The notes below the pieces were generated by a model. The model was not told the origin of the DNA. It saw nothing but the letters and a program-made list of their open reading frames with translations, and made no database searches. DNA of 39,684 nt from a virus, in the IMG/VR virus record IMGVR_UViG_3300031758_000189, positions 1 through 39,684 of that record; one strand, written 5' to 3'. The translations under genes and the position numbers were made by a program. Numbering within the stretch: position 1 is the stretch's first letter; each line of letters opens with the position of its first letter. This document shows positions 1 to 37,335 of this stretch, one piece after another.

Positions 1-82
1 TGTTTTCTACAGGCTCGATTGCTGCCGTGGCTTCGAGTTCTGGCGCGGAGGCATCCGCTTCAATAGGAACATTATCGTCCAT
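1..82 (-). CDS. Scaffolding protein, N-terminal fragment (second copy of the 5' end)
   Basis: The leftward reading frame starts at ATG 82 and runs off the left edge after 27 codons. It is base-for-base identical to the first 82 bases of the complete scaffold gene at 36496-37287, and the identity continues upstream to base 127. It is not a separate gene. It is the point where the contig wraps onto itself, so in the real genome this fragment continues into the scaffold sequence ending at 36496. Confidence 0.85.
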   Translation of the reverse strand, partial: MDDNVPIEADASAPELEATAAIEPVEN

Positions 83-127
83 GTTTAACCCTTAAAGAGT
101 TCCTGATGAGCCGCATCAGTACGGTTG
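1..127. repeat. 127-bp exact repeat of 37206-37332 (contig wrap point)
   Basis: Bases 1-127 match 37206-37332 without a mismatch (constant offset 37205). Similarity continues imperfectly through the following hairpin (to about 160) and then breaks down. The repeat covers the scaffold start codon, its ribosome binding site and part of the leader. The right copy lies about 2.3 kb inside the right edge, so this is not a simple terminal repeat of the contig. Confidence 0.9.
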
Positions 128-130
128 GTG

Positions 131-160
131 GCTAGACTACATCATTTGATGCAGCATAGC
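131..160 (-). other. Hairpin in scaffold leader, version A
   Basis: Two 14-base arms (131-144 and 147-160) around a TT loop can pair at 11 of 14 positions on either strand. The equivalent element at 37336-37365 pairs at 13 of 14 positions. One pair differs in a compensating way (T-A here, C-G there), which supports a conserved RNA structure in the leader of the scaffold transcript. No T-tract follows on the minus strand, so it does not look like a classic terminator. Function is not known. Confidence 0.5.
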
Positions 161-171
161 AATCATGTTAG

Positions 172-9599: not shown

Positions 9600-11126
9600 T
9601 CAAGAACCCATCCATGATGTAGATATTCCCTGTGGAGAATAACTGCTCGTGCGTCGCTTGTCAACGCGTGCTTCGCGGTGTGCGATAGGAAATGCAAACG
9701 TGACCGCGATGGCGTCCGCAGCGTCTGGTGAGGCCAGCCCGCGCGACTTCATGTCCTTCTTGCTTTCGAGGAATATCGTCCCCTTGCTGTCAGGCTTTAT
9801 CTTCGGGCTTATCAGGTCCGTTTTCAGGAACCGATCTGCTGGTATGTGTGCCGTTTTTAGCCATTCTCGCATGGCGCCCCACATCTCAGCGCGCTTGTTG
9901 CCGTACATCATCTGCTTCATGGCCTTATTGCCGAAGTTTACGCCGCGTATCTTGTACCGCTGCTCTTTCAGCCGGTCTACGATGCCTGCGCCTAGCCCGC
10001 CTTCGTCGATGACGACCAGCGCCGGCTTATATTCCTCTATCGCTTCGATGACATGGCCGACCACTTCCATCGTGTCAGCGCCTTTCAGCCGCTTGATGGC
10101 GATGAGATCGCGGCCCTGCCGCACAGCGATGACGGTAGCGTCAGCGCCGAAGCGCGCAGGGTCAACACCGATAGCGATGGGTGCCGTTTCATCCTTATGC
10201 TTGGGCCGTGCCATCGCGTCGTCCACCAAATTGACGCCGATAAACTGATCATCGCCTTCCGACGGGAACTTTCCGAACACTTCGACGTGCGCTTGGTAGC
10301 TGTCAGGCCCATATTCGTCGATAATGCGCTGGTACAGGTTTTTGTCTGTACCCTCGACTTCGCGCGCGTCGATGTTGCGCGTTTGCCAGAACGCCCGCTT
10401 GCTGTGGAATGTCTCGTAAAAATAGCCAGTGTTCCGCCGCGGGTTGGAAAAGGCAACATGAAAGCGGTGCGGCGTGTTTTCTGTGAAGAAACCATCAGAC
10501 ACAGACCATATTGAGTCTGGAATACCGCTGGCTTCGTCGAAGATCAGCAGCACACCGTCGAAGTTATGGACACCCGCGTAAGCGTCAGGGTTCTCTTCCG
10601 ACCACAGCCGGCCTTCGACGGACCAGTAGCGCGTGCCTTTCTTGAGGTCGCGCTCGACCAGTTCCGTTAACCATTTGGCGGGCATGATGCGTGTGGCGGC
10701 TATCTCGAACCAGTGACTGTTGAGCGACATCGCCAGCCACTTGGTAATCTCTGCCCATGTGACGGAGCGTAACTGCGCCTCAGAGTTTGCCGACACGATG
10801 GTCGTCGAGCCGATGCGTGTGGATAGCATCCATATTGTCAGCCAGCTTACTAAGGCTGACTTGCCGATCCCGCGGCCTGACGCAATCGCCAGCCGCATGG
10901 TGTCATAATCTATCTTGCCGTTGTTCTGCTTGATGTGGTCGCGTAGCGTGCCTAGCACTTCGCGTTGCCATTTACGCGGTCCTTGAAAATGCTCCAGCGG
11001 CGTACCCTTTTCGCCCCACGGGAATGTCAGCAATACAAAAGCTAGTGGATCATCCTTGATCGTCGGCGACCATAGCCGCGACATCAATTCCATCTCTTCC
11101 GATGCGCTGTAAATCGGCTGCTGCAT
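9600..11126 (-). CDS. terL: Terminase large subunit (508 aa)
   Basis: ATP-driven DNA packaging motor and headful/site nuclease. The Walker A-like SGRGIGKSA is at residues 83-91, Walker B LLIFDEAS at 193-200, followed by a SNPRRNTGYFYE coupling segment at about 227-238. The C-terminal RNase H-fold nuclease shows IGVDPARFGADATVIAV (Asp322), VVIDEGGLGAGIVDRL (Asp374) and DAADAIAVTF near 475. Length is normal. The start at 11126 overlaps the small-subunit gene by 77 bases in another frame. Its class by signature (P22-like headful or other) cannot be fixed by eye; absence of true terminal repeats agrees with headful packaging. Confidence 0.95.
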   Translation of the reverse strand: MQQPIYSASEEMELMSRLWSPTIKDDPLAFVLLTFPWGEKGTPLEHFQGPRKWQREVLGTLRDHIKQNNGKIDYDTMRLAIASGRGIGKSALVSWLTIWMLSTRIGSTTIVSANSEAQLRSVTWAEITKWLAMSLNSHWFEIAATRIMPAKWLTELVERDLKKGTRYWSVEGRLWSEENPDAYAGVHNFDGVLLIFDEASGIPDSIWSVSDGFFTENTPHRFHVAFSNPRRNTGYFYETFHSKRAFWQTRNIDAREVEGTDKNLYQRIIDEYGPDSYQAHVEVFGKFPSEGDDQFIGVNLVDDAMARPKHKDETAPIAIGVDPARFGADATVIAVRQGRDLIAIKRLKGADTMEVVGHVIEAIEEYKPALVVIDEGGLGAGIVDRLKEQRYKIRGVNFGNKAMKQMMYGNKRAEMWGAMREWLKTAHIPADRFLKTDLISPKIKPDSKGTIFLESKKDMKSRGLASPDAADAIAVTFAFPIAHREARVDKRRTSSYSPQGISTSWMGS

Positions 11127-11550: not shown

Positions 11551-11557
11551 TGGGCGT

Positions 11558-11586
11558 ACTATAGTGTGTTGCAAACCGGATTGCAA
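11558..11586 (-). promoter_or_regulatory. Candidate late promoter for terminase operon with overlapping palindrome
   Basis: Read on the minus strand: TTGCAA (11581-11586), a 17-base spacer, then TATAGT (11558-11563), with the ATG of terS 7 bases further on. The segment 11569-11586 is a near-perfect palindrome (TTGCAA, CCGG core, TTGCAA) covering the -35 box and half the spacer, a typical operator position. The -10 matches the sigma70 consensus at 5 of 6 bases and the -35 at 4 of 6. Confidence 0.5.
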
Positions 11587-12131
11587 AAAAATAAAAATTG
11601 TTTGCGATAGGTGCCCGTGACAGTCACGCGGCCCAAGGCCCTACCCCTACCCCCTCCAGCCAGCCGGCGTTCTGGTTCTGTTCTGTCGCGTAGATTTTCG
11701 GTTGGCCTTTTGGCTTTACGTTTACGTCAACGTAAAGAAAAACACATCGGCTGCTATGCTGCACTGCAACATGGGCGTTCTGGGTCATGGCTGCGCGGGT
11801 CATGACTGCGTGGCCAATTTGCGTGGGCGAGTGGTGACTAGCCAAACTAGCCAGTTTACAATTGTTAACAAAACTAGGCGTTCTGGGTCATCGGATTACA
11901 AGTCATCCTTAGAAAGTATACATTCTAACCATATAGGTTAATTATATACTTTTTTGTTACTGACTTAACAATCCATTACCCAGAACGCCCAGTTTCCGCG
12001 CTGACACGCAGAAATCCGTGACTTTTCGCTAGGCAATTTAGGCCGAAATCATAGCCCAACAAATGACTATTTCGCCCATGTCGATTGCCCAACAATTACC
12101 CAACATTTCACCCGCGCAAAAACTAGGCAAC

Positions 12132-12179
12132 TTTCTGGGTCATTTGTTGGGCTATTTTTCACGCCAAATGACCCAGAAA
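12132..12179. repeat. 15-bp perfect inverted repeat around an 18-base loop
   Basis: The arm TTTCTGGGTCATTTG at 12132-12146 is exactly complementary to CAAATGACCCAGAAA at 12165-12179. The left arm overlaps the right arm of a second, longer-range 16-bp inverted repeat (12051-12066 with 12140-12155), so two alternative pairings compete. It lies about 16 bases from the DnaA box and 50 bases upstream of the early promoter. Confidence 0.75.
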
Positions 12180-12194
12180 TTGCCCAGAAATATC

Positions 12195-12203
12195 TGTGGA
12201 TAA
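12195..12203 (-). promoter_or_regulatory. DnaA box (TTATCCACA)
   Basis: The minus strand reads TTATCCACA, a perfect match to the classical DnaA box TTATNCACA. It is flanked by a run of T residues and by the inverted repeats of the control region. A single box by chance is possible, but its position in the repeat-rich divergent gap favours a role in replication initiation by the host. Confidence 0.55.
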
Positions 12204-12229
12204 CTTTTTTAGTGCAACACATTTTGTTG

Positions 12230-12258
12230 TTGACACTATGACAAAGAGGGTAGATAAG
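12230..12258 (+). promoter_or_regulatory. Candidate early promoter
   Basis: TTGACA at 12230-12235 is a perfect -35. A 17-base spacer leads to GATAAG (12253-12258), a 4-of-6 -10 match; TAGATA at 12251 is an alternative. The first early gene starts at 12285 after GAGGAA. This is the only strong sigma70-like -35 in the divergent gap facing the early cluster. Confidence 0.5.
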
Positions 12259-12284
12259 AGGGCATCAACAGTGAGGAAATTGAT

Positions 12285-12491
12285 ATGACATACAACATTA
12301 TCGAAACTAGCGGACTTTATCCTAATACACGCAAAAACGTATTGGCTAACGCTGACAGCTTGGCTGACGCAATCGCACTGGCGCACAAGCTGTTCACGAT
12401 CATCGACCTTGAACGTGATCCGCTCAATCAACATTGCGCTGACTTCTTCACATCATGCGGACGCGTGATGCAAATTGAGCCACGCGCTTAA
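12285..12491 (+). CDS. Early small hypothetical protein (68 aa)
   Basis: First gene of the rightward early cluster, with GAGGA 8 bases before the ATG. The product (MTYNIIETSGLYPNTRKNVL, then ANADSLADAIALAHKLFTII) looks like a short beta-hairpin followed by a helix and ends QIEPRA. The N-terminal part resembles the small strand-helix folds common in phage early proteins that bind host factors. No function recognised. Confidence 0.65.
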   Translation: MTYNIIETSGLYPNTRKNVLANADSLADAIALAHKLFTIIDLERDPLNQHCADFFTSCGRVMQIEPRA

Positions 12492-12516
12492 CATCAATCA
12501 ATAGGATCAACACAAC

Positions 12517-12711
12517 ATGATTGACTATATCGACATCGCAGACCGCCGTTGGACTATCCGCCGCACTTGCATAGACACACCGGGCCGCGCGTATGCTGCC
12601 CGCCTTGTGGACGAATACGACGTTAACGTGCTGCCGAAGTTAGGCATAGGTTTTTATGCCGAAACTATCGACGACATCCGCCACCAGTTAAGCGGAGGGC
12701 AAATGGCATGA
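12517..12711 (+). CDS. Early small hypothetical protein (64 aa)
   Basis: Encodes MIDYIDIADRRWTIRRTCID followed by TPGRAYAARLVDEYDVNVLP and a helix TIDDIRHQLSGGQMA. A mixed strand-helix layout, neutral, no membrane segment. The upstream AGGATCAACACAAC contains an AGGA site. Its TGA overlaps the ATG of the next gene (ATGA), so the two are coupled. Function unknown. Confidence 0.65.
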   Translation: MIDYIDIADRRWTIRRTCIDTPGRAYAARLVDEYDVNVLPKLGIGFYAETIDDIRHQLSGGQMA

Positions 12712-12905
12712 CATACACAATGGACATCGAAACAGCGGAGGGCGTCAAGCCACATGGCTTTCATCTTGGCACGGACATCAAGATTGCGCGTCAATTCGCA
12801 ATCGAGGCGCTTAATCGCGCCGGCACGTTAAGTGTCGCCATCCGTGGCGATAAAGGCAAGCTGGTTGAGATACTCGATTACCGCTGCATGGACATTGAGG
12901 AGTGA
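12708..12905 (+). CDS. Early small hypothetical protein (65 aa)
   Basis: Starts MTYTMDIETAEGVKPHGFHL, continues TDIKIARQFAIEALNRAGTL and ends LDYRCMDIEE. The arrangement (strand, helix with conserved-looking ARQFAIEAL, strands SVAIRGDKGKLVEILDY) resembles small phage proteins of the same design as its neighbour at 12285. Start codon overlaps the previous stop by four bases. Function unknown. Confidence 0.65.
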   Translation: MTYTMDIETAEGVKPHGFHLGTDIKIARQFAIEALNRAGTLSVAIRGDKGKLVEILDYRCMDIEE

Positions 12906-12910
12906 GCGAC

Positions 12911-13138
12911 ATGACACAGACAGTTTCACAATATTACATCGAAGGCATTAGCGAGGGCGTCTCCATGTGGAAGGCATGGAAGGCGCAAGGCATGGCCGAT
13001 GCCGAATTGCCAGCCCTTGCACAAGCGCATCTCGACAACATCAAGCGCACAGCGCGGACATTCGACGCACAATCACCAGTCGGTCAGATGTTGCGTGGAG
13101 AGCGCGACTTTTGGCGCAACAAACTAAAGAAAACCTAA
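12911..13138 (+). CDS. Early small helical hypothetical protein (75 aa)
   Basis: ATG 12911 is preferred over GTG 12902 because GGAG (12898-12901) is 9 bases upstream of the ATG. The product starts MTQTVSQYYIEGISEGVSMW and is Trp/Lys/Arg rich, with GMADAELPALAQAHLDNIKR as a long helix and ERDFWRNKLKKT at the end. Probably a small helical bundle. No function recognised. Confidence 0.6.
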   Translation: MTQTVSQYYIEGISEGVSMWKAWKAQGMADAELPALAQAHLDNIKRTARTFDAQSPVGQMLRGERDFWRNKLKKT

Positions 13139-13144
13139 CACCAT

Positions 13145-13162
13145 GTTAGCCGCGCAGCTAAC
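13145..13162 (+). other. Hairpin in early intergenic leader
   Basis: GTTAGC and GCTAAC form a perfect 6-bp stem around CGCGCA in the 73-base gap before the 87-aa gene. No T-tract follows, so it may influence translation or mRNA stability of the downstream gene rather than terminate. Confidence 0.35.
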
Positions 13163-13211
13163 GGTCGCGCGGCGTTCATGGCGCTAGTGCCAATTATAGG
13201 AGTGAGAAACT

Positions 13212-13475
13212 ATGACAGACAATACTTGCAACGGATGGCGTAACGCAGCGACGTGGACAGTTGGGCTTTGGTTCAATGACGGATGGGCTGAAATGGCAGA
13301 AGAGGGCGACGATATCACAGCCGACTATTGCCGCGATATGGTCGAAGAGTATGTTTACGATCTGATCGGACGCGATAGCACCACAGCCGGTTTCATCTGG
13401 GATATGCTCGACCTTAACGCTGTCGATTGGGACGCATTGGCAGAACATCACACACCCGTAGGTGAGGACGCATGA
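13212..13475 (+). CDS. Early protein with NGWxNxATWxVxLW motif (87 aa)
   Basis: The N-terminal CNGWRNAATWTVGLWFNDGW matches a motif seen in many small phage and plasmid proteins (NGWxNxxTWxVxLW), a family without a confirmed function. The rest is very acidic (EMAEEGDDITADYCRDMVEE) with helical character, so the protein may mimic DNA or bind a host protein; that is speculation from charge. RBS GGAG lies about 9 bases upstream. Its TGA overlaps the ATG of a 29-aa membrane peptide. Confidence 0.7.
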   Translation: MTDNTCNGWRNAATWTVGLWFNDGWAEMAEEGDDITADYCRDMVEEYVYDLIGRDSTTAGFIWDMLDLNAVDWDALAEHHTPVGEDA

Positions 13476-13561
13476 TCGCCCATATCGCCGCCCTATCCCT
13501 ATTCGCTGGCGCTGGCGCGCTGGCGATATGGTCAATCATTCACACATTGAAAGGAAACTGA
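13472..13561 (+). CDS. Tiny single-pass membrane peptide (29 aa)
   Basis: The ATG overlaps the previous stop (ATGA). The 29 codons encode one hydrophobic helix, LSLFAGAGALAIWSIIH, with a short Lys-containing end. The last codons double as the start of the repeated leader of the next gene. Translation is plausible by coupling, but a frame this short could also be a coupling device without a functional product. Confidence 0.4.
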   Translation: MIAHIAALSLFAGAGALAIWSIIHTLKGN

Positions 13562-13568
13562 ACCATGA
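13549..13568 (+). repeat. 20-base translation leader, copy 1
   Basis: GAAAGGAAACTGAACCATGA, containing a strong AAAGGA site and the ATG of the 50-aa gene, is identical to 13897-13916. A third, diverged copy is at 14930-14947. The exact repetition of spacer as well as Shine-Dalgarno suggests recent duplication or selection on this leader. Confidence 0.7.
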
Positions 13569-13717
13569 CATTCTATTATGAGGCCGACAGCAAAACGGGG
13601 AGCGGTGTGACCGCATGGGATGATTGCTATCTAAACGCAACATCTGAGGCTGACGCACTGGCGCAGCTTGAGAGCCGAGGCGTTAATGTAACGCATATTG
13701 AACAAGTGCAAGATTAG
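13565..13717 (+). CDS. Early tiny hypothetical protein (50 aa)
   Basis: Starts at ATG 13565 behind AAAGGA and ends at TAG 13715-13717. The product begins MTFYYEADSKTGSGVTAWDD and contains EADALAQLESRGVNVTHIEQ. This strand-helix-strand outline resembles the 68-aa product at 12285, hinting at a common small fold. Function unknown. Confidence 0.6.
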   Translation: MTFYYEADSKTGSGVTAWDDCYLNATSEADALAQLESRGVNVTHIEQVQD

Positions 13718-13729
13718 GAGCGCATAACC

Positions 13730-13894
13730 ATGACCGAAGCAAACCAAACAACATTGCAAGAAATCTTTTTCGACCTGTGCGACCTAATCGACAGCGGCGA
13801 AGCGGACAACATTGCATTGACCGACTTTGCAGAGTTTTCGACCTTGTCCGAATTTCTGATTGAGCAGCGCGACAAAATCGCTCGCTTCACATAA
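13730..13894 (+). CDS. Early tiny acidic hypothetical protein (54 aa)
   Basis: ATG 13730, preceded by AGGAGCG about 8 bases upstream, to TAA 13892-13894. The acidic helical product begins MTEANQTTLQEIFFDLCDLI and ends SEFLIEQRDKIARFT. It has no recognisable domain. It lies 18 bases before the next gene, whose leader is the second copy of the 20-base repeat. Confidence 0.6.
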   Translation: MTEANQTTLQEIFFDLCDLIDSGEADNIALTDFAEFSTLSEFLIEQRDKIARFT

Positions 13895-13896
13895 AC

Positions 13897-13916
13897 GAAA
13901 GGAAACTGAACCATGA
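13897..13916 (+). repeat. 20-base translation leader, copy 2
   Basis: Identical to 13549-13568, here entirely non-coding up to the ATG at 13913. Confidence 0.7.
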
Positions 13917-14137
13917 ACGATATTTTTAGAACTGTCCGCGAGTTACTCCAAAGCAACAAATGCGTCCTAATGGGTAACGCCGTGAACAATGAAGGCGAAC
14001 TATACGATGACAGCGTTGAGAACCTAACGGCAATCTTGGCGATGAAAGGGATGCTGGAAAGCGCCGAGGTTATGCAAGAGTTTGACGATTGCGTCTGGAT
14101 AAAGGTTGACCGCGAAGACTGGGAGAAAATGGCATGA
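13913..14137 (+). CDS. Early small hypothetical protein (74 aa)
   Basis: Begins MNDIFRTVRELLQSNKCVLM and is acidic in the second half (DDSVENLTAILAMKGMLESA; FDDCVWIKVDREDWEKMA). Predicted helical and soluble. Behind a strong AAAGGA site in the repeated leader. Its stop overlaps the start of the 68-aa gene (ATGA). Function unknown. Confidence 0.65.
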   Translation: MNDIFRTVRELLQSNKCVLMGNAVNNEGELYDDSVENLTAILAMKGMLESAEVMQEFDDCVWIKVDREDWEKMA

Positions 14138-14340
14138 CACACGACCGAACCTATTTCAGAATGCTATCCGATACCGCACTGGCTGACGCTGCGCGCTATT
14201 GCGACAATGACTTGGCCCTAGTGCTAGGCGAACGTCTGGAGACGCTCACAGACGCACAGGAAGAGCTAGAAGCGTTACAGATATTATATGACCGCCTAGT
14301 GGCCGAAAATAACGCCCTGCTGGACGATATGGCCGAATGA
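14134..14340 (+). CDS. Early coiled-coil hypothetical protein (68 aa)
   Basis: After MTHDRTYFRMLSDTALADAA, residues about 30-66 form an uninterrupted amphipathic helix (LGERLETLTDAQEELEALQI then LYDRLVAENNALL) that predicts a coiled coil, so the product probably oligomerises or binds a helical partner. Coupled to both neighbours by ATGA overlaps. Function unknown. Confidence 0.65.
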   Translation: MTHDRTYFRMLSDTALADAARYCDNDLALVLGERLETLTDAQEELEALQILYDRLVAENNALLDDMAE

Positions 14341-14396
14341 CAGCGTTACTCGCTGGAGCCGCCCTGTTCCTACTCACATTACTATTGGAGGATTAA
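14337..14396 (+). CDS. Possible 19-aa hydrophobic peptide
   Basis: ATG overlaps the previous stop, and the 19 codons encode a nearly all-hydrophobic helix (MTALLAGAALFLLTLLLED). The final codons contain the GGAGG site of the next gene. This could be a genuine membrane micro-peptide or simply a translated leader that couples the two neighbours. Evidence is only the overlap and composition. Confidence 0.3.
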   Translation: MTALLAGAALFLLTLLLED

Positions 14397-14399
14397 CCA

Positions 14400-14606
14400 A
14401 TGAACCAATACCAACTAGCCATCCTTGGCCTTCTACTGGCGCAACTTTCCGCTTTATATGCCCTCCATAAGACGCGCAAAGACCGCGACCAATGGAAAGC
14501 CATGTGGACAATGACAGCCGAAGAACTGCTTTACTGGAAACGCAACGCAATCTTGCGCGATCCATTGACGGGCCGCTATGTCAAAAAGGTCAAGCGCAAT
14601 GGATAG
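14400..14606 (+). CDS. Early small membrane-anchored protein (68 aa)
   Basis: Residues about 4-22 (YQLAILGLLLAQLSALYAL) form one N-terminal membrane helix. It is followed by a basic cytoplasmic helix (HKTRKDRDQWKAMWTMTAEE) and a Lys/Arg-rich end. GGAGG is 7 bases upstream of the ATG. The layout (N-out anchor with a positive tail) fits an inner-membrane early protein. Function unknown. Confidence 0.65.
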   Translation: MNQYQLAILGLLLAQLSALYALHKTRKDRDQWKAMWTMTAEELLYWKRNAILRDPLTGRYVKKVKRNG

Positions 14607-14931
14607 GAACCTACGCGCCAAAATACGGCAACTGTGCAGCTACATCACCGACAAGTCGGCGGTTATGCAATACATCAACAGGGAACGGAACCTCAACCTG
14701 ACGCTGCGCGACATAGAGACCGCCTGCATAGGGCAACGCGACTATCGGCCCAACCTCAAGCCAATGGCCCCGTCTCCGCTGATCGTGACGCACAAGCAAC
14801 AGGGATATGACGACCTAGCTAGGGCGTTGTTCAAATATCATGCCAAGCGCACACACGGCCCTGAGCAAGCCTATTGGCTGGCACGACTGAACGACCGCCG
14901 GCCTAAGCCCACCACAACCATAGAAATGTAA
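14599..14931 (+). CDS. Early basic hypothetical protein (110 aa)
   Basis: The start is placed at ATG 14599 (MDRNLRAKIRQLCSYITDKS), which overlaps the previous stop and has AAAAGG about 9 bases upstream; an ATG at 14578 is in frame but less likely. The N-terminal 50 residues look like a helix-turn-helix (ITDKSAVMQYINRERNLNLT; LRDIETACIGQRD). A basic region with DDLARALFKYHAKR follows. DNA binding is a reasonable inference; possibly a small transcription regulator. Confidence 0.55.
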   Translation: MDRNLRAKIRQLCSYITDKSAVMQYINRERNLNLTLRDIETACIGQRDYRPNLKPMAPSPLIVTHKQQGYDDLARALFKYHAKRTHGPEQAYWLARLNDRRPKPTTTIEM

Positions 14932-14944
14932 AGGACACCGAACC

Positions 14945-15190
14945 ATGTTTGAAATTAAAGTTATCGACCCATCCGCCGATGATGACGAAAAAGGCATTGA
15001 CGCCCAGCTTGACCTGCTACGAGTAGCCGCCCGCGCATTTAAGAAGCACGAACGGCTCAAGGCTGAAATGCAGGCCCATGAGCGGCATATGTCGCTAATC
15101 TGCCAGACCTACGGCAACGTCTATAAGGTCTGGGGGTTTAGGCCGGAGCATCTGCGTCAAGCCTGCGTAGCACGGGGGCTGCTGAAATGA
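14945..15190 (+). CDS. Early small helical hypothetical protein (81 aa)
   Basis: Begins MFEIKVIDPSADDDEKGIDA, then long helices (QLDLLRVAARAFKKHERLKA; EMQAHERHMSLICQTYGNVY) and ends LRQACVARGLLK. The third diverged copy of the AAAGGA leader precedes it (14930-14947). Probably a helical bundle. Its TGA overlaps the next start. Function unknown. Confidence 0.65.
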   Translation: MFEIKVIDPSADDDEKGIDAQLDLLRVAARAFKKHERLKAEMQAHERHMSLICQTYGNVYKVWGFRPEHLRQACVARGLLK

Positions 15191-15372
15191 GCCGCCCGAT
15201 GTTTTACCCAATGGGAACGCTAGATGTCGGCGAAGTTGGCACTATGCCAGCCGCCAAGCGCGGCGATGCCAAGCGCACCAGCCGCAACGTCTCGCAATAC
15301 GGCATCAGGAACGGCAAGACGTTCAAGTGCCGCACTGTTGAGGGTGTCACCTTCATAACGAGGTTAGGTTAA
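15187..15372 (+). CDS. Early small protein, possible DNA-binding (61 aa)
   Basis: The C-terminal half (RTSRNVSQYGIRNGKTFKCR, then TVEGVTFITRLG) follows a pattern seen in small phage proteins where an Arg/Gly-rich helix is followed by KFxxRTxxGVxxxxR. This layout resembles minimal winged-helix/HTH DNA-binding proteins. The product is basic. It overlaps both neighbours (ATGA and TAATG). The assignment is by resemblance only. Confidence 0.5.
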   Translation: MSRPMFYPMGTLDVGEVGTMPAAKRGDAKRTSRNVSQYGIRNGKTFKCRTVEGVTFITRLG

Positions 15373-15728
15373 TGACAACCAAGAAAGACATTATGCGGTG
15401 GTATACCACATCCATATTGCCGCCCGACGGCACGGAAGAACTTAACAAGTTTATGCTTGATACCGCCATCAGTTTTGATGCTTTCTGGTATATGCCTGAT
15501 GGTTCGCCGGTCGGCATGATTTACAAGGATTTGTCTAAAGCACTTAAAGCTTATGCAAAGTATGATTTCACATCAGACGACATCTTGAAGATGCACCCGA
15601 CGCATGATGAACTTGTAGCCAATACGCTGCGGGTTAAAGATACGCCAGAAGACTATACTTTCGAAGCGTGGCGACACCCAATACCAAAGCGCACAACGCG
15701 AATAATTACGGAGGTGTTAAGCCAATGA
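15372..15728 (+). CDS. Early hypothetical protein (118 aa)
   Basis: A 118-aa protein starting MTTKKDIMRWYTTSILPPDG with two acidic and aromatic helices (LDTAISFDAFWYMPDGSPVG; LSKALKAYAKYDFTSDDILK). Soluble, no clear catalytic motif. It shares a base with the previous stop (TAATG) and its own stop overlaps the next start. Function unknown. Confidence 0.6.
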   Translation: MTTKKDIMRWYTTSILPPDGTEELNKFMLDTAISFDAFWYMPDGSPVGMIYKDLSKALKAYAKYDFTSDDILKMHPTHDELVANTLRVKDTPEDYTFEAWRHPIPKRTTRIITEVLSQ

Positions 15729-16141
15729 CCAGCATAAGCGAATGGGGCGCAGTCATGCGCCTAGCTAGACGCGCTGCGCTGTTGGCTGGCGAAGAACAAC
15801 GCCGCTTAGGGCGTGTGACGGAACAGGAAGATAGCAGCATCATGCTGTATACCGACGACCCGACCACGGCGGGGCTGTTTACCCGCAATTCCGACATGGC
15901 TGCAATGTGCAAGACCAGCGGCATTGAAGGCGTGTGCATCGTCATGGGCGACAAGTTTCCGCCCGCAGCGCATGAGGCCGAACGGGACGATCCGGAACTG
16001 CCACGCGTTGCTGCGATGTGGTTCCCCGCCACAGGCGACAAATGCCCGCGCTGCCGCCTGTTTAGGCGGACGGAAGGCGAAATCTGCAAAACGTGTGAAA
16101 GGACACTGACAAATGACCCTGCGCCAGTTCCTGTTCGATAA
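15725..16141 (+). CDS. Early zinc-ribbon protein (138 aa)
   Basis: ATG 15725 is chosen because GGAGGTG lies 9 bases upstream. A longer frame from 15668 would overlap the previous gene. Near residue 110 the sequence DKCPRCRLFRRTEGEICKTC has four cysteines spaced CxxC...CxxC, forming a zinc ribbon of the type seen at the C-terminus of isoleucyl-tRNA synthetase and in Fpg-like glycosylases. Upstream, DDPTTAGLFTRNSDMAAMCK and GDKFPPAAHEAERDDPELPR suggest a soluble domain also recalling the IleRS tail. Role unknown; nucleic-acid binding is likely for such a ribbon. Confidence 0.6.
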   Translation: MTSISEWGAVMRLARRAALLAGEEQRRLGRVTEQEDSSIMLYTDDPTTAGLFTRNSDMAAMCKTSGIEGVCIVMGDKFPPAAHEAERDDPELPRVAAMWFPATGDKCPRCRLFRRTEGEICKTCERTLTNDPAPVPVR

Positions 16142-16476: not shown

Positions 16477-18822
16477 TCAATTCTTGCCTATGTTTGGCAT
16501 GATGCTGGATTTAGGCAAGTCTTCCGCCAAGCGGCGCAAGTCGGACTTGTTCCGTTTCTTCACGTCAGGCGCGGCAAAGATGTGTTTCTTAGTTGGGTGG
16601 TCAACGCAAGCGATGCGCCCCATGTCAACCCAGCCAGCCTCTTTTAATGCGTGTAGGAGCGCCGCCTGTGGTATCTTCACGCCAGCCGGCACGTTGACCG
16701 CCAGAGCGTCACAAATGCGGTGGAAAGGCCCACCGATGACGCCATTGGCAAACACGCCCGCCTTCTCGCGCATCATGTCCACAAGGTAGCTCTCGGCTAC
16801 ACTCATGCCATGCTCGACCATGTTGAGCTTCCATTCGGTGACAGGCGGCGCAGCGGCAGGATTGAACCGCGACACGTCGCGCTGCCACAGCCATGCGGCG
16901 CACTTCTCATAGCCGCCGTTCTTATACCACGCCCATAGCTTGTTCGCTGCGGTGGCTGACATACGCGGCGCGTGCGTCCACACGCAGAACCAACGCCTGT
17001 CCTGTGTCGGCAGCGTGATCGGCAGCGGATCGTTCGTGTAAGCAATCACCATCAGGCGGTTGACCAACTCATAGGGGTGCATACCCTTGCGGTTGACTGT
17101 CAGCGTTTCAGGTGGTGCAGCGATGAGCGGTTTCAGCTTGTTAGCCATAGCCCTGCGCTCCCGCGCCTCTGGTTCTTTTAATTCGTTTAGGATGACAACT
17201 TCAGCTTCAAGCGCGTAGCCCCACTGGCTGTCCAAGCCGCCCGCCTCAATGACTGACCTGTTGCGCCAGTGTTGACCGCCCAGCGCCCACAGGAACGGCT
17301 GGAACATACTGTCCTTGCCGACGCCTTCATCGCCGCCAATCAGGATGGCATGGTTTATCTTGACGTTAGGATGCTGTATCTTAAACGCCATAGCGTCAAG
17401 GATGTGGTCTAACTCCTCGTCATCCGCCACCAGATCGCGGCAATGCTGGAGCCACGGCTCAACGTCATGGTCTGCAATCTTGTCGCTGTCCGACACGTCA
17501 GGGCGTCCGTCAACCCAGCGGTTGCCGTAGACTAAGCCGTCACGCGTCACCAAGGTGTCATCGCCAGCGGCGAACGTCACGGCTGTTAGCGCAGGCGCGC
17601 CGCGATCCTGACGGCGCTCATCATAATAATAAGACGCCGAAATGCGCGGTTTCTTGCCGTGCAGGGATTTGCAGTCAACGTGACGGAACAGGGCGTTGAA
17701 GACGTTGCGGGCTATCTCTTGGCGCGTCACCATGTCAAAATAGCAGTCATCGGACTGTATATAGGCGAAACGCTCGAACCACTCGCTTTGTTCCAGCCGT
17801 CCTGCTTCTTTCTTTTCGACTTCACGCACACGCGCTGCGGCTTCATCAGGAAAAGCGTCGTTCGGTGCGATTTTCTCATACATCGACGCCAGACGCTCTG
17901 CGATTAGTTCGTCACGCAATCCGGGCGTTACCTTCGGGCCGCCTTCATTGGCTACCCAATCAAGAAAGGTGCGGCTGTCTAGGTCTTGGCAGTGCCCATG
18001 ATAGCAGCAGAACGAACGATCCAGCGGCTTATAGCGCGCCTCAATCATGCCGTCGCTGTGCTGGTCATGGTTAGGGCAGACGATGCCGCACCAGCCGTCA
18101 TTGTTGGGCGTGCTTAGGACTAAGTTCTTTTCGGCAAGCCATGTCAGGACGTTGTCAAGGCCAGTGTCGCGCAACTGCACCGCTTTATATTCGGCTGTGT
18201 CGCCTTCCTCTGGCGTAACGTCCAGCGCGGTGCAAATCTGCTCTAGCGTATACTCGCGGTCAGGGTCGAACGATACCAGCCGCGCGGGAAAGTTGTTGCG
18301 GCCCTGCTTCAGGTTGACGCTGCCGGGGATACGGCAGTTGCGAACAGCGTTAGTCGCGCCGGGATCAGTGTAGCCCGCATCCGCAATCGCCTTGATGGCC
18401 GCGCAGAAGTCGCCCTTGCGTGGCTGTTCGCTGAACGCGTAGCCCCACTGAAACGACCCTTCGCTGGTCTCCAGCACCCATGTCGGCGCAAGCGGCGGCT
18501 CTTTCGACTTCGTGCCAACGTCGTCCAGCATCATGAACAGCACATACTCGACGTTGCTGGACTTGGCGGCTGGCTTGCCGTCTACAAAGCGGTCAACAAT
18601 GAACGAGCCTGTGTTGACATACCATGCCTCGCCTTCTTTCATGCGGGTCTTTTCTGGCAGGAACGCAGGGAAGGTCGCCTTCGGCGCGCCGTCTGCGTGG
18701 AATATCATATTGCCGTCGCTGTCGTGCTGCGGCTTCTGACGCACAACAAGGGCAGTCTCGCCCACATTGTCCGTCGCCAATCCCGTTATATACTCTATGA
18801 ATTTCGTGCGATCCTCACTCAT
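16477..18822 (-). CDS. Primase-helicase (prim-pol plus SF3/VapE-like helicase, 781 aa)
   Basis: Residues about 90-200 look like a RepB/AEP-type primase: VLFMMLDDVG (Asp100/Asp101 as metal ligands) and RNCRIPGSVNLKQG at about 161-174. A zinc-binding patch follows (CPNHDQHSDG at about 249-258, CCYHGHC at 272-278). The C-terminal half is a superfamily 3/DUF5906-type helicase with Walker A GGDEGVGKDS (496-505), a Walker B-like EAEVVILNELKEPEA and an Asn sensor region AYTNDPLPI. It likely unwinds and primes phage DNA. AAAGGA of its ribosome binding site overlaps the polymerase stop region, so it is co-transcribed with polymerase. Confidence 0.88.
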   Translation of the reverse strand: MSEDRTKFIEYITGLATDNVGETALVVRQKPQHDSDGNMIFHADGAPKATFPAFLPEKTRMKEGEAWYVNTGSFIVDRFVDGKPAAKSSNVEYVLFMMLDDVGTKSKEPPLAPTWVLETSEGSFQWGYAFSEQPRKGDFCAAIKAIADAGYTDPGATNAVRNCRIPGSVNLKQGRNNFPARLVSFDPDREYTLEQICTALDVTPEEGDTAEYKAVQLRDTGLDNVLTWLAEKNLVLSTPNNDGWCGIVCPNHDQHSDGMIEARYKPLDRSFCCYHGHCQDLDSRTFLDWVANEGGPKVTPGLRDELIAERLASMYEKIAPNDAFPDEAAARVREVEKKEAGRLEQSEWFERFAYIQSDDCYFDMVTRQEIARNVFNALFRHVDCKSLHGKKPRISASYYYDERRQDRGAPALTAVTFAAGDDTLVTRDGLVYGNRWVDGRPDVSDSDKIADHDVEPWLQHCRDLVADDEELDHILDAMAFKIQHPNVKINHAILIGGDEGVGKDSMFQPFLWALGGQHWRNRSVIEAGGLDSQWGYALEAEVVILNELKEPEARERRAMANKLKPLIAAPPETLTVNRKGMHPYELVNRLMVIAYTNDPLPITLPTQDRRWFCVWTHAPRMSATAANKLWAWYKNGGYEKCAAWLWQRDVSRFNPAAAPPVTEWKLNMVEHGMSVAESYLVDMMREKAGVFANGVIGGPFHRICDALAVNVPAGVKIPQAALLHALKEAGWVDMGRIACVDHPTKKHIFAAPDVKKRNKSDLRRLAEDLPKSSIMPNIGKN

Positions 18823-18833: not shown

Positions 18834-20789
18834 TTACTTGCCATACCTACTCATAATTGCCACTTCTGCATTCAGGGGTAAACCCGACGCCCAAGGTGGC
18901 GGCTCACACATAATCTGCACCAGCCGCGCGGCGGCGGCTTCGGCTTCATCTTCTGGCACTTCCAAGACGATTTCATCGTGGATGTGCAGCACTACATCGT
19001 CCAACTGCCGTAAGGCGTAGCGCAGCAAGTCGTTAGCCACAGCCTGCGTGATGTTCTCACACGCCAGACCGCGCCACAGCCGCGCTCTAGGCCATTCCTT
19101 AGCGTCTGCGGCTGGCTTCCATGAAGCCTTAGCATAGGTTAGATTGCCTTCCTCGTCGAAGCGGGCGAAAGGATAACATAACACACGGCCAGACGGAAGA
19201 GCATACCAAAGATGCAGTCCGTCAAATAAATATGTGACGCGCCCGATGGTAAACTCGCGGCCCTTGTTCCGCATGGCGCGCATATAGGTTTCCTCAAGGC
19301 CCGACCAGTAAGGCACGGCCCACTTGTTAGCCCTGCGCCATGCGTCCACCATGCGCTTCGCGTCGCTCTCTGACATCATCAGGCCGTAGATGCGGCCCAT
19401 GCTGGCGAACGCACCGACACCGCCGGCGAAACCGCACGCCAACTCTTGCACCTTACCGATCTGGCGCTGGTCTTTATCAACGTCGTCATAGCCGACATGA
19501 AAGGTCGCCATAGCGTTGTGCTTGTAGACATCCTCACCCTTGGCAAAGATGTCCAGCTTGTTCGCGCCGAAGATGCTGTTGGACGCCCACGGCGTCACCC
19601 GCGCTTCGATGGCGGCCCAATCGGCGACGACCAGCCGCTTGCCTGTGTCGGCCATCAGCGCAGGGCGTAGCATCCCTTTCAGCACGTCCGTCACGCGGCG
19701 GCCATACTCAGGAACAATCTGATGCCCGCGCACCATAGCCTGCCGCACTAATGCAGGGTCGGCGGCGCACTTGCGGGGGAAATTGTGGACCTGAAGCCCA
19801 AACGATGAAGCGCGTCCAGTAGCACTGCCTCCAGCAAATACGAACGCTCCTCTAACGCGAAAATCCTCCTCGTCAGCAAGCGCCGCCGCACGTTGGAACT
19901 TTGCAACGGACGATGCCCACAGATCGTCCGCGCACTGGATGACTTCCGCGACTTCCGATGGCACTTCATCTGGGTTCTCCTCTGCCAGCACGAGTAAGTT
20001 GGCGCGCACGTTCTTGTCAATGGACAGCTTCTCGACGCCGTCCTTCATCACGGTCGCCACGGCTACGGCCTGCGGCCCTACACGGTCCAGCACCCACTTC
20101 TTCATCTTGGGGCTGCGGACGGATGTTATCTCGCCCTGCGTCACCTCTGCGACGATGGATTGTATCTCTGCCAGTTCAGTTTCAGCGTAGCGCACAGCCG
20201 CCAGCGCCAGCGGCCTGTCGAGCAGCACGCCGCGGTCGTTGATGCGCTCGTTGGTGTGATAATCAGCCAACTCATCAGCCGACAGCGGACGCTGCGCCTG
20301 CGCGATAGCGCGCATGGCCCGCACGTCCTGTTCGCAATAATCGACCATCTCCTGCATCAGCGTCGCGTCTTCACGAAATGCGCCGTCTGACTGCGGGATG
20401 GACAACAGGCGGATCAGTTGACCGCCGCGGTGGTCTTTCTTCATGGTGGCGCCAGCGAAGCGGCCCACATCCTCAAGGCTGCCCGGCGCACAGTTGGCGC
20501 GGGCCTGCGCTGCGGTGCAGTAGAACTGCTCCAGCTTGAAATCGACCTGAAGGACATACCAGAATATCAGGCGCTCGAACGCTGCGTTGTGCGCGTACAC
20601 TAGCCCCTTGTGGTCTTTGACGGCTTGCGGGAAAGGCTCACTGGGGAGCCACGTCCGCACGTCTTCGTCATCAAATGCGTATGACATACATAGCACGTCG
20701 GTGCTGGCGTCCTGCGCGTAATTGTACACGCCGCGGCTGCGAAGGTCGCAACGGCTCCGTGTTTCGAAATCGCACCATAATTTAGACAT
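18834..20789 (-). CDS. Family A DNA polymerase with 3'-5' exonuclease (651 aa)
   Basis: ATG 20789 is preferred (GGAAGAG upstream) over an in-frame GTG at 20801. The N-terminal DnaQ-like exonuclease shows WCDFETRS (Asp7, Glu9), AHNAAFER (about 66-73) and YCEQDV (Asp155). The polymerase has motif A VVADWAAIEAR (Asp390), motif B RQIGKVQELACGFAGG (about 442-457) and motif C VVLHIHDEIVLEV (602-606 core). In motif B the residue equivalent to E. coli Phe762 is Leu450, and the usual Tyr766 is Phe454. Replicates the phage genome together with the primase-helicase downstream and nucleases upstream. No fusion to a helicase. Confidence 0.93.
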   Translation of the reverse strand: MSKLWCDFETRSRCDLRSRGVYNYAQDASTDVLCMSYAFDDEDVRTWLPSEPFPQAVKDHKGLVYAHNAAFERLIFWYVLQVDFKLEQFYCTAAQARANCAPGSLEDVGRFAGATMKKDHRGGQLIRLLSIPQSDGAFREDATLMQEMVDYCEQDVRAMRAIAQAQRPLSADELADYHTNERINDRGVLLDRPLALAAVRYAETELAEIQSIVAEVTQGEITSVRSPKMKKWVLDRVGPQAVAVATVMKDGVEKLSIDKNVRANLLVLAEENPDEVPSEVAEVIQCADDLWASSVAKFQRAAALADEEDFRVRGAFVFAGGSATGRASSFGLQVHNFPRKCAADPALVRQAMVRGHQIVPEYGRRVTDVLKGMLRPALMADTGKRLVVADWAAIEARVTPWASNSIFGANKLDIFAKGEDVYKHNAMATFHVGYDDVDKDQRQIGKVQELACGFAGGVGAFASMGRIYGLMMSESDAKRMVDAWRRANKWAVPYWSGLEETYMRAMRNKGREFTIGRVTYLFDGLHLWYALPSGRVLCYPFARFDEEGNLTYAKASWKPAADAKEWPRARLWRGLACENITQAVANDLLRYALRQLDDVVLHIHDEIVLEVPEDEAEAAAARLVQIMCEPPPWASGLPLNAEVAIMSRYGK

Positions 20790-20815
20790 AGAAGTTCTCA
20801 CTCTTCCGCTACTTG

Positions 20816-21533: not shown

Positions 21534-22655
21534 TTACTGGATTTTAGACATAGCTTTGGTAAGCGTTTGCCCGATTTGCAAAACCGCTGGCCGGGGATCA
21601 TTTTCCGGCGCAAGGGTAGAGCCTGTGGAGACAGCGACAACTAAGTCCGCTGGCAATTCTATTTTGGCTTTCTTCAAAGCCTTTTCCGCTTGGGCTGGCG
21701 ACAGCGGCTTGGGGTCGCCCCATGCTTCTACACCAACACCTGTTAGGAAGGCTACAGCCTTATCCTCATTTGTCCACTGTCTTGTGGCGCGTTTATTGAC
21801 CAGCTTCCAGCCGGGGACTTTATGGCCTTCTTCCAGAAGCCCGTGCGCCATCTGCTGCAAGTCTTTGATGAACCCTTCAATCAGCGGCGCCTGCTCCAGA
21901 TAGTGTGCAATCTGGTCAATCGGCAGTGCGTCAATCTTGGCTTTCAGTGCGCGGTCTACAGCGCCTGTCATGACAGGACAGATAGGCTTGGCCGCGCACC
22001 ACTTGCAATGGTCGCCTGACGCCAACGGCGCGTCTGGCCGCGCAGCAATCTTAACGGCAGCGGCAAGTTCTTTCTCGAACGCATCAACGCGGGCAAGGTC
22101 TGTCACCCAACGCTTGACGTAGGGCGGCTGCACAATAATCAGTTCGACTTCTTTTGCGCCTTTGAAAGCCCAAGCCGTATCCGCCGTGCGTTTAGCCGCC
22201 GCAGCGTAGAAGAGTAGCTGGCTGTTCTCCTCGACTTCGACAGCCACGCCATCGCCAAACTTCCAATCCAGAACGACCGCTCTATCACCAATGCGACCAA
22301 GAAGATCGGTAGAACCAAAAACGTCAGGCAGAAAATCACCAAAACCAACCCGGCTTTCAACCGCATATTCCATCTCCCCCTTGGGGTCTATCTCGTCCAG
22401 CGCACGCAGCGCAGGTATCAGCTTGTCATCGACCAGTGCTTCAGTCAGCACGGTCTTCTCGTAAGTCGTGCCGACCATGCTGTACGGGTCAAGGTCACGC
22501 TCTAATATAGATGCTATAGTGTCGTGCAGGAGCGTGCCTTCGTCGGCGTAGCTGCTGCTGGGCTTTGGCGGAACGCTATCCACCAGCGCAACGCTGCCGG
22601 GGCAGGCGATGACGCGTTTGGCGGTCGAACCGCCGACTATCTTACTATGCTGCAT
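21534..22655 (-). CDS. Cas4/RecB-like PD-(D/E)XK nuclease with Fe-S cysteines (373 aa, DUF2800 type)
   Basis: The start is ATG 22655 with AAGGAAGG upstream; a longer frame to 22970 would run over the divergent VRR-NUC gene. The nuclease core shows LLHDTI (His44), GSTDLL (Asp117), VVLDWKFG (Asp130, Lys132) and QLLFY (Gln146, Tyr150). Cysteines at 18, 217, 220 and 226 (ACPGS; CKWCAAKPICP) are placed as in Cas4/AddB-type iron-sulfur nucleases. Probably a 5'-3' end-processing exonuclease used in phage recombination. First gene of the leftward replication operon. Confidence 0.88.
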   Translation of the reverse strand: MQHSKIVGGSTAKRVIACPGSVALVDSVPPKPSSSYADEGTLLHDTIASILERDLDPYSMVGTTYEKTVLTEALVDDKLIPALRALDEIDPKGEMEYAVESRVGFGDFLPDVFGSTDLLGRIGDRAVVLDWKFGDGVAVEVEENSQLLFYAAAAKRTADTAWAFKGAKEVELIIVQPPYVKRWVTDLARVDAFEKELAAAVKIAARPDAPLASGDHCKWCAAKPICPVMTGAVDRALKAKIDALPIDQIAHYLEQAPLIEGFIKDLQQMAHGLLEEGHKVPGWKLVNKRATRQWTNEDKAVAFLTGVGVEAWGDPKPLSPAQAEKALKKAKIELPADLVVAVSTGSTLAPENDPRPAVLQIGQTLTKAMSKIQ

Positions 22656-22685
22656 ACTGAACCTTCCTTTACTGTTTGAGCGGCC

Positions 22686-22713
22686 ATAATACATACAACA
22701 AAATTTGATGCAA
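22686..22713 (-). promoter_or_regulatory. Candidate promoter of leftward replication operon
   Basis: On the minus strand: TTGCAT (22708-22713), 16-base spacer, TATTAT (22686-22691), with the nuclease ATG 31 bases downstream. The -10 is a 5-of-6 match and the -35 is weak. Its spacer contains the left arm of the inverted repeat described separately. Confidence 0.45.
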
Positions 22714-22737
22714 CCCTTGAAATGCAAAAAATTTTGT
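22698..22737. promoter_or_regulatory. Inverted repeat, candidate operator between divergent replication operons
   Basis: ACAAAATTT (22698-22706) is perfectly complementary to AAATTTTGT (22729-22737) with a 22-base centre. It sits inside the 96-base divergent gap between the Cas4-like nuclease and VRR-NUC genes and overlaps the leftward promoter. One regulator could control both operons from here. Confidence 0.45.
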
Positions 22738-22751
22738 AGTAGCCTTTTTGC

Positions 22752-23027
22752 ATGACTGAGAAAGAAATAGAGCGGTATTTCTGTAAACGTGTGCGGGCAG
22801 CGGGCGGTTTTGCCTATAAGTTCCGCAGCATTACGCAGATCGGCGTCGCCGACCGCATCGCCTGTATGCCTAACGGTGAGGCTTGGTTCGTAGAACTGAA
22901 GCAGCCTAACGGCAGGCTGTCTGCGTTGCAGCGTATCTTTTCTGATGAGATGACGCACACCAAGCAGCACTACGCGTGCTTGTGGTCTAAAGAGGATGTG
23001 GACGCATGGCTCAAACGCTTCAGCTAA
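22752..23027 (+). CDS. VRR-NUC domain nuclease (91 aa)
   Basis: Starts MTEKEIERYFCKRVRAAGGF and contains ITQIGVADRIACMP (Asp34) and AWFVELKQPNGRLSALQ (Glu48, Lys50), the PD-(D/E)XK core of stand-alone VRR-NUC proteins. Such nucleases usually accompany a SNF2-like helicase in phage genomes, as here (the helicase overlaps by 22 bases). Predicted to act as a structure-specific or Holliday-junction-type nuclease in phage recombination. No clear ribosome binding site upstream. Confidence 0.9.
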   Translation: MTEKEIERYFCKRVRAAGGFAYKFRSITQIGVADRIACMPNGEAWFVELKQPNGRLSALQRIFSDEMTHTKQHYACLWSKEDVDAWLKRFS

Positions 23028-24319
23028 GGCCGTACCAGCAAGAGGCTGCGTCGTTTCTGTACGAGCGTGACCGCGCCATGATCCTTGCGCCTGTCGGCGC
23101 GGGCAAGACGGCCATTACCCTGACGGCGATGGATGAAATGCTGCGCGACGGCCATGTCAAACGCTGGCTGGTGGTAGCGCCGAAGCGCGTCTGTACGGAT
23201 GTGTGGCCGGTGGAAGCACCGAAGTGGTCTGGCATCACTCCGGCGCTGGCTGTCGGCACACCAGCGCAAAGGGTGGATGCGTTACGAAGTGATGCCAGTG
23301 TTGTCGTTATTAACTACGACAATCTGGATAAGCTAGAGGATTTATCCAGCTTTGACGGAATTGTGTTCGACGAACTGACGCGACTGAAGAACCCTAGCGG
23401 CAAACGCTTCAAGGCGCTGGACAAGCTGTTGGCTAACGTCAAGGTGCGCTGGGGTTTGACCGGATCGTTCACGTCGAACGGGCTGGAGGATGTCTTCGGC
23501 CAGTGCAAGATCATTGACCAGACGCTGCTGGGCCGTGCCAAGGGTGCGTTCATGCAGCAGTATTTCATATGCACCAACCGCGACTTCGGCCAGTGGGTTC
23601 CCGCAGCCGGCGCGCTAGAGCAAGTCATGCAGCGCATCCGCCCTGCGACGTTCGTGCTGGAGCCGGGCGAGTATAAGGACAAGCTGCCGCCCTGTCATGT
23701 TAACGAAGTGCGGGTTCCGTTAACAGATCGTAAGCCATATGATGAAATGAAGCGTCATTATGTAACACGTTTTGGCGACGACCAGATCGTAGCGCAGAAC
23801 GCCGCGTCGGTGACAACCAAGCTGCAACAGATGGCGTCAGGCTTTGTCTACAACCGCGACGCTGGCACGCCGTCTATCTGGTTCAGCAGCCACAAGTTTG
23901 ATCGGCTGGAAGAACTGCTGGCGGAGAACCAGCGTGCGAATACCATCGTCGCCTACACCTATCAGGAAGAGTTGGCGGAACTGAAGCGCCGCTTCCCGCA
24001 CGCAAAGACAATGGACGACGACAACGTCATCGAACACTGGAACGCAGGGCAGGTCGAATTGCTGTTGGCCCACCCTAAGTCGGCAGGCCACGGCCTGAAC
24101 CTACAGCATGGCGGATGCCACATGGTGTTCCTGTCGCTGCCTTGGTCGCTGGAACTGTACGAGCAGACGGTCGGGCGCCTGCACCGCAGCGGCCAGACGA
24201 AGGACGTGTGGGTCTATGTGATGCTGACTGAAAAAAGTATTGACGAACGTATATGGGCGGCGCTGCACGACAAGCGTGCGGTGTCCGACATAGCCTTAGA
24301 GGAATTGAAAAATGAGTAA
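23006..24319 (+). CDS. SNF2-type DEAD/DEAH helicase (437 aa)
   Basis: Begins MAQTLQLRPYQQEAASFLYE (Q-motif region), with Walker A APVGAGKTA at 28-36, VVAPKRVCTDVWPVE (motif Ia), the DEAD-box variant FDELTRLKN at 121-129 and GLTGSFTSN (motif III). The C-terminal lobe has GHGLNLQHGG and the motif VI sequence QTVGRLHRSGQTKDVWVYV, typical of SNF2 ATPases. Probably a DNA translocase or annealing helicase working with the VRR-NUC nuclease. It overlaps the VRR-NUC gene by 22 bases and the next gene by 8. Confidence 0.92.
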   Translation: MAQTLQLRPYQQEAASFLYERDRAMILAPVGAGKTAITLTAMDEMLRDGHVKRWLVVAPKRVCTDVWPVEAPKWSGITPALAVGTPAQRVDALRSDASVVVINYDNLDKLEDLSSFDGIVFDELTRLKNPSGKRFKALDKLLANVKVRWGLTGSFTSNGLEDVFGQCKIIDQTLLGRAKGAFMQQYFICTNRDFGQWVPAAGALEQVMQRIRPATFVLEPGEYKDKLPPCHVNEVRVPLTDRKPYDEMKRHYVTRFGDDQIVAQNAASVTTKLQQMASGFVYNRDAGTPSIWFSSHKFDRLEELLAENQRANTIVAYTYQEELAELKRRFPHAKTMDDDNVIEHWNAGQVELLLAHPKSAGHGLNLQHGGCHMVFLSLPWSLELYEQTVGRLHRSGQTKDVWVYVMLTEKSIDERIWAALHDKRAVSDIALEELKNE

Positions 24320-37287: not shown

Positions 37288-37332
37288 GTTTAACCCTTAA
37301 AGAGTTCCTGATGAGCCGCATCAGTACGGTTG
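37206..37332. repeat. 127-bp exact repeat of 1-127
   Basis: Second copy of the scaffold 5' end and leader. Beyond 37332 the sequence diverges, and the genes upstream of scaffold are different from those at the left edge. Confidence 0.9.
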
Positions 37333-37335
37333 TAG

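Follow-up and report, generated by a model that had tools for sequence, protein, structure and literature searches.

A predicted iteron-type replication origin in a freshwater phage, with repeats that covary with the wing of its primase-helicase

Genomic context of the gap

The window, the whole stretch of DNA analysed here, comprises the 39,684 bases of a virus record with P22-like head genes (Table 1). Upstream of the gene for the large terminase subunit, a minus-strand gene occupies the position of the small subunit, and the gap under study separates this gene from the plus-strand early operon. The terminase-small ORF starts at 11586 (TTG) or, more likely, at 11550 (ATG), in which case the gap would begin at 11551. 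No credible gene was found inside it. The primase-helicase gene is followed by a family-A DNA polymerase and other replication genes. Rfam and tRNA searches gave no matches, and a scan for promoters and terminators returned chance-level hits only. Matches to genome contigs were short contigs in metagenome bins, and no host was inferred.

An array of one degenerate word

An expectation-maximisation motif search on the gap yielded a single degenerate word, roughly TKYTGGGYNAT, which covers the TTCTGGGTCAT words, the CCCAACA words and some of the CTAGGCAAT sites; TTCTGGGTCAT and TTGTTGGGCTAT are variants of this one word. The gap holds approximately 11 strong copies, a density at least 100-fold that of the rest of the window, and 10 sites of at least 11 bits compared with 2 in the remaining 39 kb. 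The search score was 104, against a mean of 58 and a maximum of 68 in shuffles, and the array is not due to chance. No second cluster of the word was present in the window outside the gap. Tandem copies are spaced 11–12 bp apart here versus 9 bp in most relatives.

An earlier note, made from the sequence alone, had called the gap a likely replication origin, and every item it named is present. The perfect DnaA box is the only one in the window, the AT-rich tract is confirmed, and the gap is indeed without a credible gene. The five TTCTGGGT(C/A)AT words lie in both orientations (plus strand at 11778, 11881 and 12133; minus strand at 11975 and 12168). The CCCAACA words number four (plus strand at 12055, 12088 and 12099; minus strand at 12145) and belong to the same motif as the TTCTGGGTCAT words rather than to a separate one. 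Of the two perfect inverted repeats, said to be 15 and 16 bp and to share an arm, the first is 15 bp (12132-12146/12165-12179) and the second is 17 bp (12051-12067/12139-12155), with the shared arm around 12132-12155.

The same note had proposed that mutually exclusive hairpins form a structural switch. The DNA hairpin z-score of −4.5 for 12030-12210 is in favour of this reading. However, long perfect inverted repeats arise automatically when one word occurs in opposite orientations, Rfam gave no match, and the switch has no independent support, which makes it very improbable.

Table 1. Predicted origin elements and associated genes in the window
Feature	Position	Strand	Remarks
Large terminase subunit	9600-11126	-	
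Predicted replication origin region	11551..12284	.	Iterons, AT-rich tract and DnaA box; same place in ~100 relatives
Iteron TCTGGGTCAT	11777..11788	+	17.0 bits; left arm, directed at AT tract
Iteron TCTGGGTCAT	11880..11891	+	17.0 bits; left arm, directed at AT tract
AT-rich tract, candidate DNA unwinding element	11892..11974	.	Between convergent iterons; richest 11909-11953, 80% A+T
Iteron TCTGGGTAAT	11975..11986	-	16.7 bits; right arm, directed at AT tract
Weaker iteron CTAGGCAAT	12026..12037	+	10.3 bits
Iteron TTGTTGGGCTAT	12051..12062	-	14.1 bits
Tandem iteron pair TTGTTGGGCAAT / TGTTGGGTAAT	12084..12106	-	Spacing 11 bp; 15.3, 13.1 bits
Tandem iteron triplet CTAGGCAAC / TTTCTGGGTCAT / TTGTTGGGCTAT	12123..12155	+	Spacing 12 bp; motif search
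Tandem iteron pair TTTCTGGGTCAT / TTTCTGGGCAAT	12168..12190	-	Spacing 11 bp; 17.7, 17.0 bits
Perfect DnaA box TGTGGATAA	12195..12203	+	Sole perfect one in window
Small early genes	12285-16141	+	
Primase-helicase, predicted origin-binding initiator	16477..18822	-	781 aa; DUF5906; NrS-1 match; residues 737-744 covary with word
Codons of wing residues 738-744 (ACVDHPT in this phage), predicted specificity segment	16591..16611	-	Covariation; predicted winged helix
Family-A DNA polymerase	18834-20801		

Conserved position and changing word in related phages

Viral contigs were scanned for the primase-helicase and the terminase, giving about 140 usable relatives, and the equivalent gap could be extracted from about 106 of them. 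Phage-specific word arrays sit in this gap in about 100 relatives, and the iteron array is nearly universal. Most relatives carry an array of their own, built from a 10-bp word that terminates in AT; these words include TCTGGGTCAT, GGGACGTCAT, TCTAGGCTAT or TTTAGGCTAT, TGTGGGTCAT, TTTGGGTCAT, TGTGAGTCAT, TGTGGACAAT, GGTAGGTCAT, TGTTAGTCAT and others, and several loci have no significant word. The position is conserved but the word differs, even where the terminases are 97–99% identical. The layout is conserved as well: the words nearest the AT-rich tract are convergent on both sides in 93 of 111 loci and divergent in five. A perfect DnaA box in a conserved context occurs in 35 of 99 gaps, compared with 0.8 in shuffles. 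The array and its conserved place and layout are direct results of these computations.

Several gaps show further peculiarities. Two relatives (L150 and L151) carry a TTCGGCAGT word that falls outside the usual pattern of ending in AT, and their wing could not be read since the primase lies beyond the fetched stretch. In two others (L139 and L141), extra short repeats, AGTTATGCACAGG, with DnaA boxes are found near the terminase end, beside TGTGGACAAT words; the TGTGGACAAT words are themselves close to a DnaA box. The distant relative L159 (MW202483.1) encodes a stand-alone DnaA domain-IV protein in its early region (26261-26557; Bac_DnaA_C, E 1e-17).

Covariation of the word with the primase-helicase wing

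The word class was called from each gap before the protein columns were examined. No protein followed the word class in whole-protein similarity, and this holds for the products of the intervening genes between the gap and the primase as well; because the signal is confined to a few residues, whole-protein similarity is blind to it. Column-wise mutual information, calculated over all proteins, was highest at residues 738 (z 21.6), 740 (z 17.2) and 744 (z 14.6) of the primase-helicase, with weaker columns at 743, 737 and 686 of the same protein. No column of any other protein, including the products of genes between the gap and the primase, reached z 5. The terminase small subunit showed no meaningful covariation (best z 4.1). 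Linkage or shared ancestry does not explain the signal, since the neighbouring proteins would then rise too, and they do not. The z-scores ignore relatedness, which the independent-pair tests described below take into account, and the latter are the safer figures.

In the aligned C-termini, HSVEYPT accompanies TCTGGGTCAT, NSKDYxN accompanies GGGACGTCAT and GSTELPT accompanies TCTAGGCTAT. The GSKEYSS wing, found with GGTAGGTCAT, mixes features of the NSKDYxN and GSTELPT pairs. A near-minimal pair (L046 and L044) has primase cores that are 98.7% identical, one with NSKDYMN and GGGACGTCAT, the other with GSTELPT and TCTAGGCTAT.

Once the wing had been identified, two further sets of loci were retrieved. 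The first comprised 78 new loci of a different clade, with a usable gap in 71; LKSREFD wings were found with TGTGGACAAT and VASGDFQS wings with TTTGGGTCATTTG, almost without exception. The second, more distant set agrees and contributes new wings, among them MSRDYPS, found with TGTTAGTCAT. The register of the motif was set by hand, as a 10-mer with AT at its end, and a few words in the second set are probably misregistered.

When the word at each locus was predicted from loci with other wings sharing residues 738 and 740, the exact 10-bp word was obtained at 100 of 116 loci and a word with at most one mismatch at 107 of 116, against an average of 3.5 mismatches to the words of other wings. Counted per unique wing, 22 of 31 predictions were exact, whereas 2000 shuffles averaged 2.2 and never exceeded 11. 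For the independent-pair tests, the tree was built from the primase core without the C-terminus, and residue 738 changed at least 23 times on it. G at 738 went with TAGG in 12 of 12 independent pairs (p 0.0005), and K or R at 740 went with G at word position 2 in 10.5 of 12 (p 0.001); no pair was opposite in either test. Across 51 unique wings, the association of K/R740 with G at position 2 had a Fisher p of 2e-7.

Exceptions exist. The identical wing NSKEYQN occurs with GGGACGTCAT or AAGTTGTCAT, and ACVDHPT, the wing of the phage studied here, occurs with TCTGGGTCAT, GTTAGGCTAT or TCTAGGCTAT. As identical wings can carry different words, residues 738 and 740 are not the whole rule, and either further residues or delayed co-evolution play a part. 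Among the proteins tested, only the primase-helicase covaries strongly with the word, at residues 738 and 740, together with 743-744, and this coupling of wing and word is shown by the computation.

A further candidate for the word-binding partner, the early protein encoded at 14578-14931, was rejected for lack of meaningful covariation. This protein of 117 aa has a basic, helix-turn-helix-like N-terminus, is found in about 51 relatives and has no Pfam match.

Domains and predicted structure of the primase-helicase

The protein contains a replicative helicase domain (DUF5906; 38.5 bits against a cut-off of 27.6), and its residues 470-619 match the NrS-1 primase (6K9C/6K9E, E 4e-10). The RepB_primase match, with 23.9 bits, falls just under the Pfam cut-off of 24.3. 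The PHROG families that match the helicase part of the protein are named DNA primase.

An AlphaFold2 run on residues 640-781, in which 41 relatives were included, predicted a winged helix with a pLDDT of 74 overall and about 83 in the wing region. The model has, at a pLDDT mostly of 73–85, helices at 700-708 and 719-729 and a strand-loop-strand wing at 732-750, in which residues 738-745 form the loop joining strands 732-737 and 746-750. The full-length model was unusable (pLDDT 58, wing below 50). Helix 719-729 (AALLHALKEAG), which precedes the wing, is nearly invariant, and we therefore place the variable specificity in the wing rather than in this helix, the contacts themselves being inferred. 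Foldseek and VIA-align searches with the C-terminal domain returned generic winged helices with weak PDB matches (Z up to 5.9), and a PDB sequence search with the winged helix found no match. The corresponding domain of P4 was not among the fold-search rows shown, which tells nothing either way. Iteron recognition by the C-terminal domain is an inference from sequence, supported by covariation only and without binding data.

A phage-specific replication origin

We consider it very likely (approximately 0.88) that the gap is the replication origin of this freshwater phage and that its iterons are bound by the phage's own primase-helicase, although no binding or replication assay is available. 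The gap is read as an origin because its words covary with the primase-helicase wing and converge on an AT-rich tract. This supports the origin call of the earlier note on a basis, the covariation with the wing, that was invisible to its reader. In the proposed mechanism, asymmetric iterons of about 10 bp form two arrays converging on the AT-rich tract, and the primase-helicase would grip them through its C-terminal winged helix. Contact with the constant part of the word (its terminal AT) would fall to conserved residues of the fold, and reading of the variable part to the wing at 738-744, mainly to residues 738 and 740. Two opposed helicase assemblies would then load on the melted AT tract, and bidirectional replication would start with the phage family-A polymerase. 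The convergent words would fit two helicase rings loading face to face. Physical binding, melting, the loading of two rings and origin activity are all inferred.

The earlier note had named a skew inflection elsewhere, or absence of the words from close relatives, as what would refute an origin; both proved misleading. The cumulative GC skew has its maximum at 4228 and its minimum at 31084, with no turn in the gap, but the skew is weak, confounded by gene orientation and uninformative as origin evidence. The word is absent from many close relatives, and this absence misleads as a refutation because word and initiator change together.

Another possibility, also left standing by the earlier note, is that the words are operators of a transcription regulator for the divergent early and late operons and that no origin is present. 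The site between divergent operons, the repetition of the words in both orientations and a repressor-like protein annotated in the distant relative DSL-LC05 would fit. However, no early-gene product covaries with the word, the strong residues lie only in the primase-helicase wing, and convergent arrays on either side of a conserved AT-rich tract resemble the layout of an origin. We regard the operator reading as very unlikely; binding of the repeats by a protein is accepted, without binding data, and the protein would be the replication initiator rather than a separate regulator.

It is also conceivable that the primase-helicase binds the words mainly for early repression or for marking the genome, for example for packaging, and that replication starts elsewhere. 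The array does adjoin both the terminase genes and the point where the early operon begins. Against this, the binder would be a replicative primase-helicase, and in the best-known proteins analogous to it iteron binding serves to initiate replication (PMC4234260, PMC7581432). Moreover, the terminase small subunit does not covary with the word, and the window has no other word cluster. This alternative is unlikely, if less so than the operator reading.

Finally, host DnaA might initiate replication, with the DnaA box as the key element. A perfect box in a conserved context in this phage and in about a third of the gaps, and the DnaA domain-IV protein encoded by MW202483, would favour such an origin. 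However, there is a single box and no cluster, most relatives lack a perfect box, whereas nearly all carry the iteron array, which is coupled to the phage initiator. A DnaA-dependent origin is accordingly most improbable. The box, proposed earlier as an origin element, holds up in part, as one accessory element; given its frequency and conserved context, host DnaA may assist in some relatives. Both the box and the hairpins are likely to be secondary in the iteron-based origin that we favour.

Under this origin reading, specificity would have been switched many times in the phage group, wing and word together. A bolder version, towards which we lean by a small margin, holds that the wing carries a compact, largely modular code and that repeated origin switching has led to mutually incompatible replicons. 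In this putative code, the base at word position 2 would depend on residue 740: K or R would call for G, G or S for T, and T or V in most cases for C. Residue 738 would specify the middle of the word, where G accompanies TAG, N usually accompanies GAC, and A, H or K usually accompany TGG. The code would extend to new combinations, as for G738 and K740 with GGTAGGTCAT. If this version is true, origin switching perhaps allows escape from satellites or rival phages that exploit or attack origins.

Comparison with known initiators

In the P4 alpha protein, primase and helicase share one polypeptide with a winged helix at the C-terminus, which binds origin repeats (PMC4234260). By analogy, the phage studied here has a primase-helicase with a predicted C-terminal winged helix together with origin repeats. 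In contrast, P4 alpha has a TOPRIM-type primase, whereas here the N-terminus is weakly RepB_primase-like and the helicase NrS-1-like (DUF5906). For P4, no switching family of iteron words with a wing code was found in the literature searched. In the initiator helicases SaPI Rep and SCCmec Cch2, the C-terminal domain recognises the iterons (PMC7581432), as it appears to do here by covariation. Their origins lie directly downstream of the gene, whereas here the origin (at or before 12284) is 4.2 kb from the gene end at 16477, with an oppositely oriented early operon in between, and the genome has P22-like structural genes; the adjacent-origin criterion of the SaPI type is therefore not met in the window. 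By analogy, the origin in the gap may work like those of P4 alpha, SaPI Rep and Cch2. No membership in the P4 alpha or SaPI Rep families is claimed, because homology of the winged helices is unshown and the SaPI adjacent-origin rule is unmet.

The pRN1 protein ORF904 also joins primase, helicase and C-terminal winged helix (PMC4234260), but the pRN1 origin is a stem-loop without iterons, unlike the array described here. In PLE RepA of the ICP1 satellites, the DNA-binding domain covaries with the origin iterons and has been swapped repeatedly (PMC8263062). RepA belongs to the RepA_N family, has no helicase or primase and changes by whole-domain swaps, whereas the changes here are mostly within the short wing. 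In geminiviruses, closely related viruses differ in their iterons, which match the cognate Rep (PMC12548392), but this Rep is a rolling-circle protein of plant single-stranded DNA viruses, unrelated to the primase-helicase.

Covariation of initiator and iterons is thus already known from PLE RepA and geminiviruses. What is new is that it occurs in this phage group, together with the compact wing code proposed above and the number of switches. No earlier report of such a wing-word system in such phages was found in the open-access literature searched. Origins of uncultured phages are seldom identified, and the rules by which initiators read origins have been worked out in only a few cases. In the present group, the sequence shows both partners in more than 100 related phages, among which switches have occurred independently many times, and this makes the recognition rule directly testable. 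The pairing of wing and word locates putative origins in other metagenomic phages and offers a natural set of initiator-origin pairs, possibly mutually specific. A further question that it poses is why origin specificity should turn over so fast.

Other features of the window

Adjoining the replication genes, a gene at 21534-22970 encodes a DUF2800 / PD-(D/E)XK nuclease-like protein, and its start faces that of a SNF2-type helicase gene (23006-24319). A 170-bp direct repeat with 95% identity is present at the start and near the end of the window (1-170 and 37206-37375). Two tail-spike-like paralogues with a common N-terminus (793-2124 and 37712-38956) adjoin these repeats, and repeats and paralogues together are likely to represent a duplicated fibre-gene cassette.
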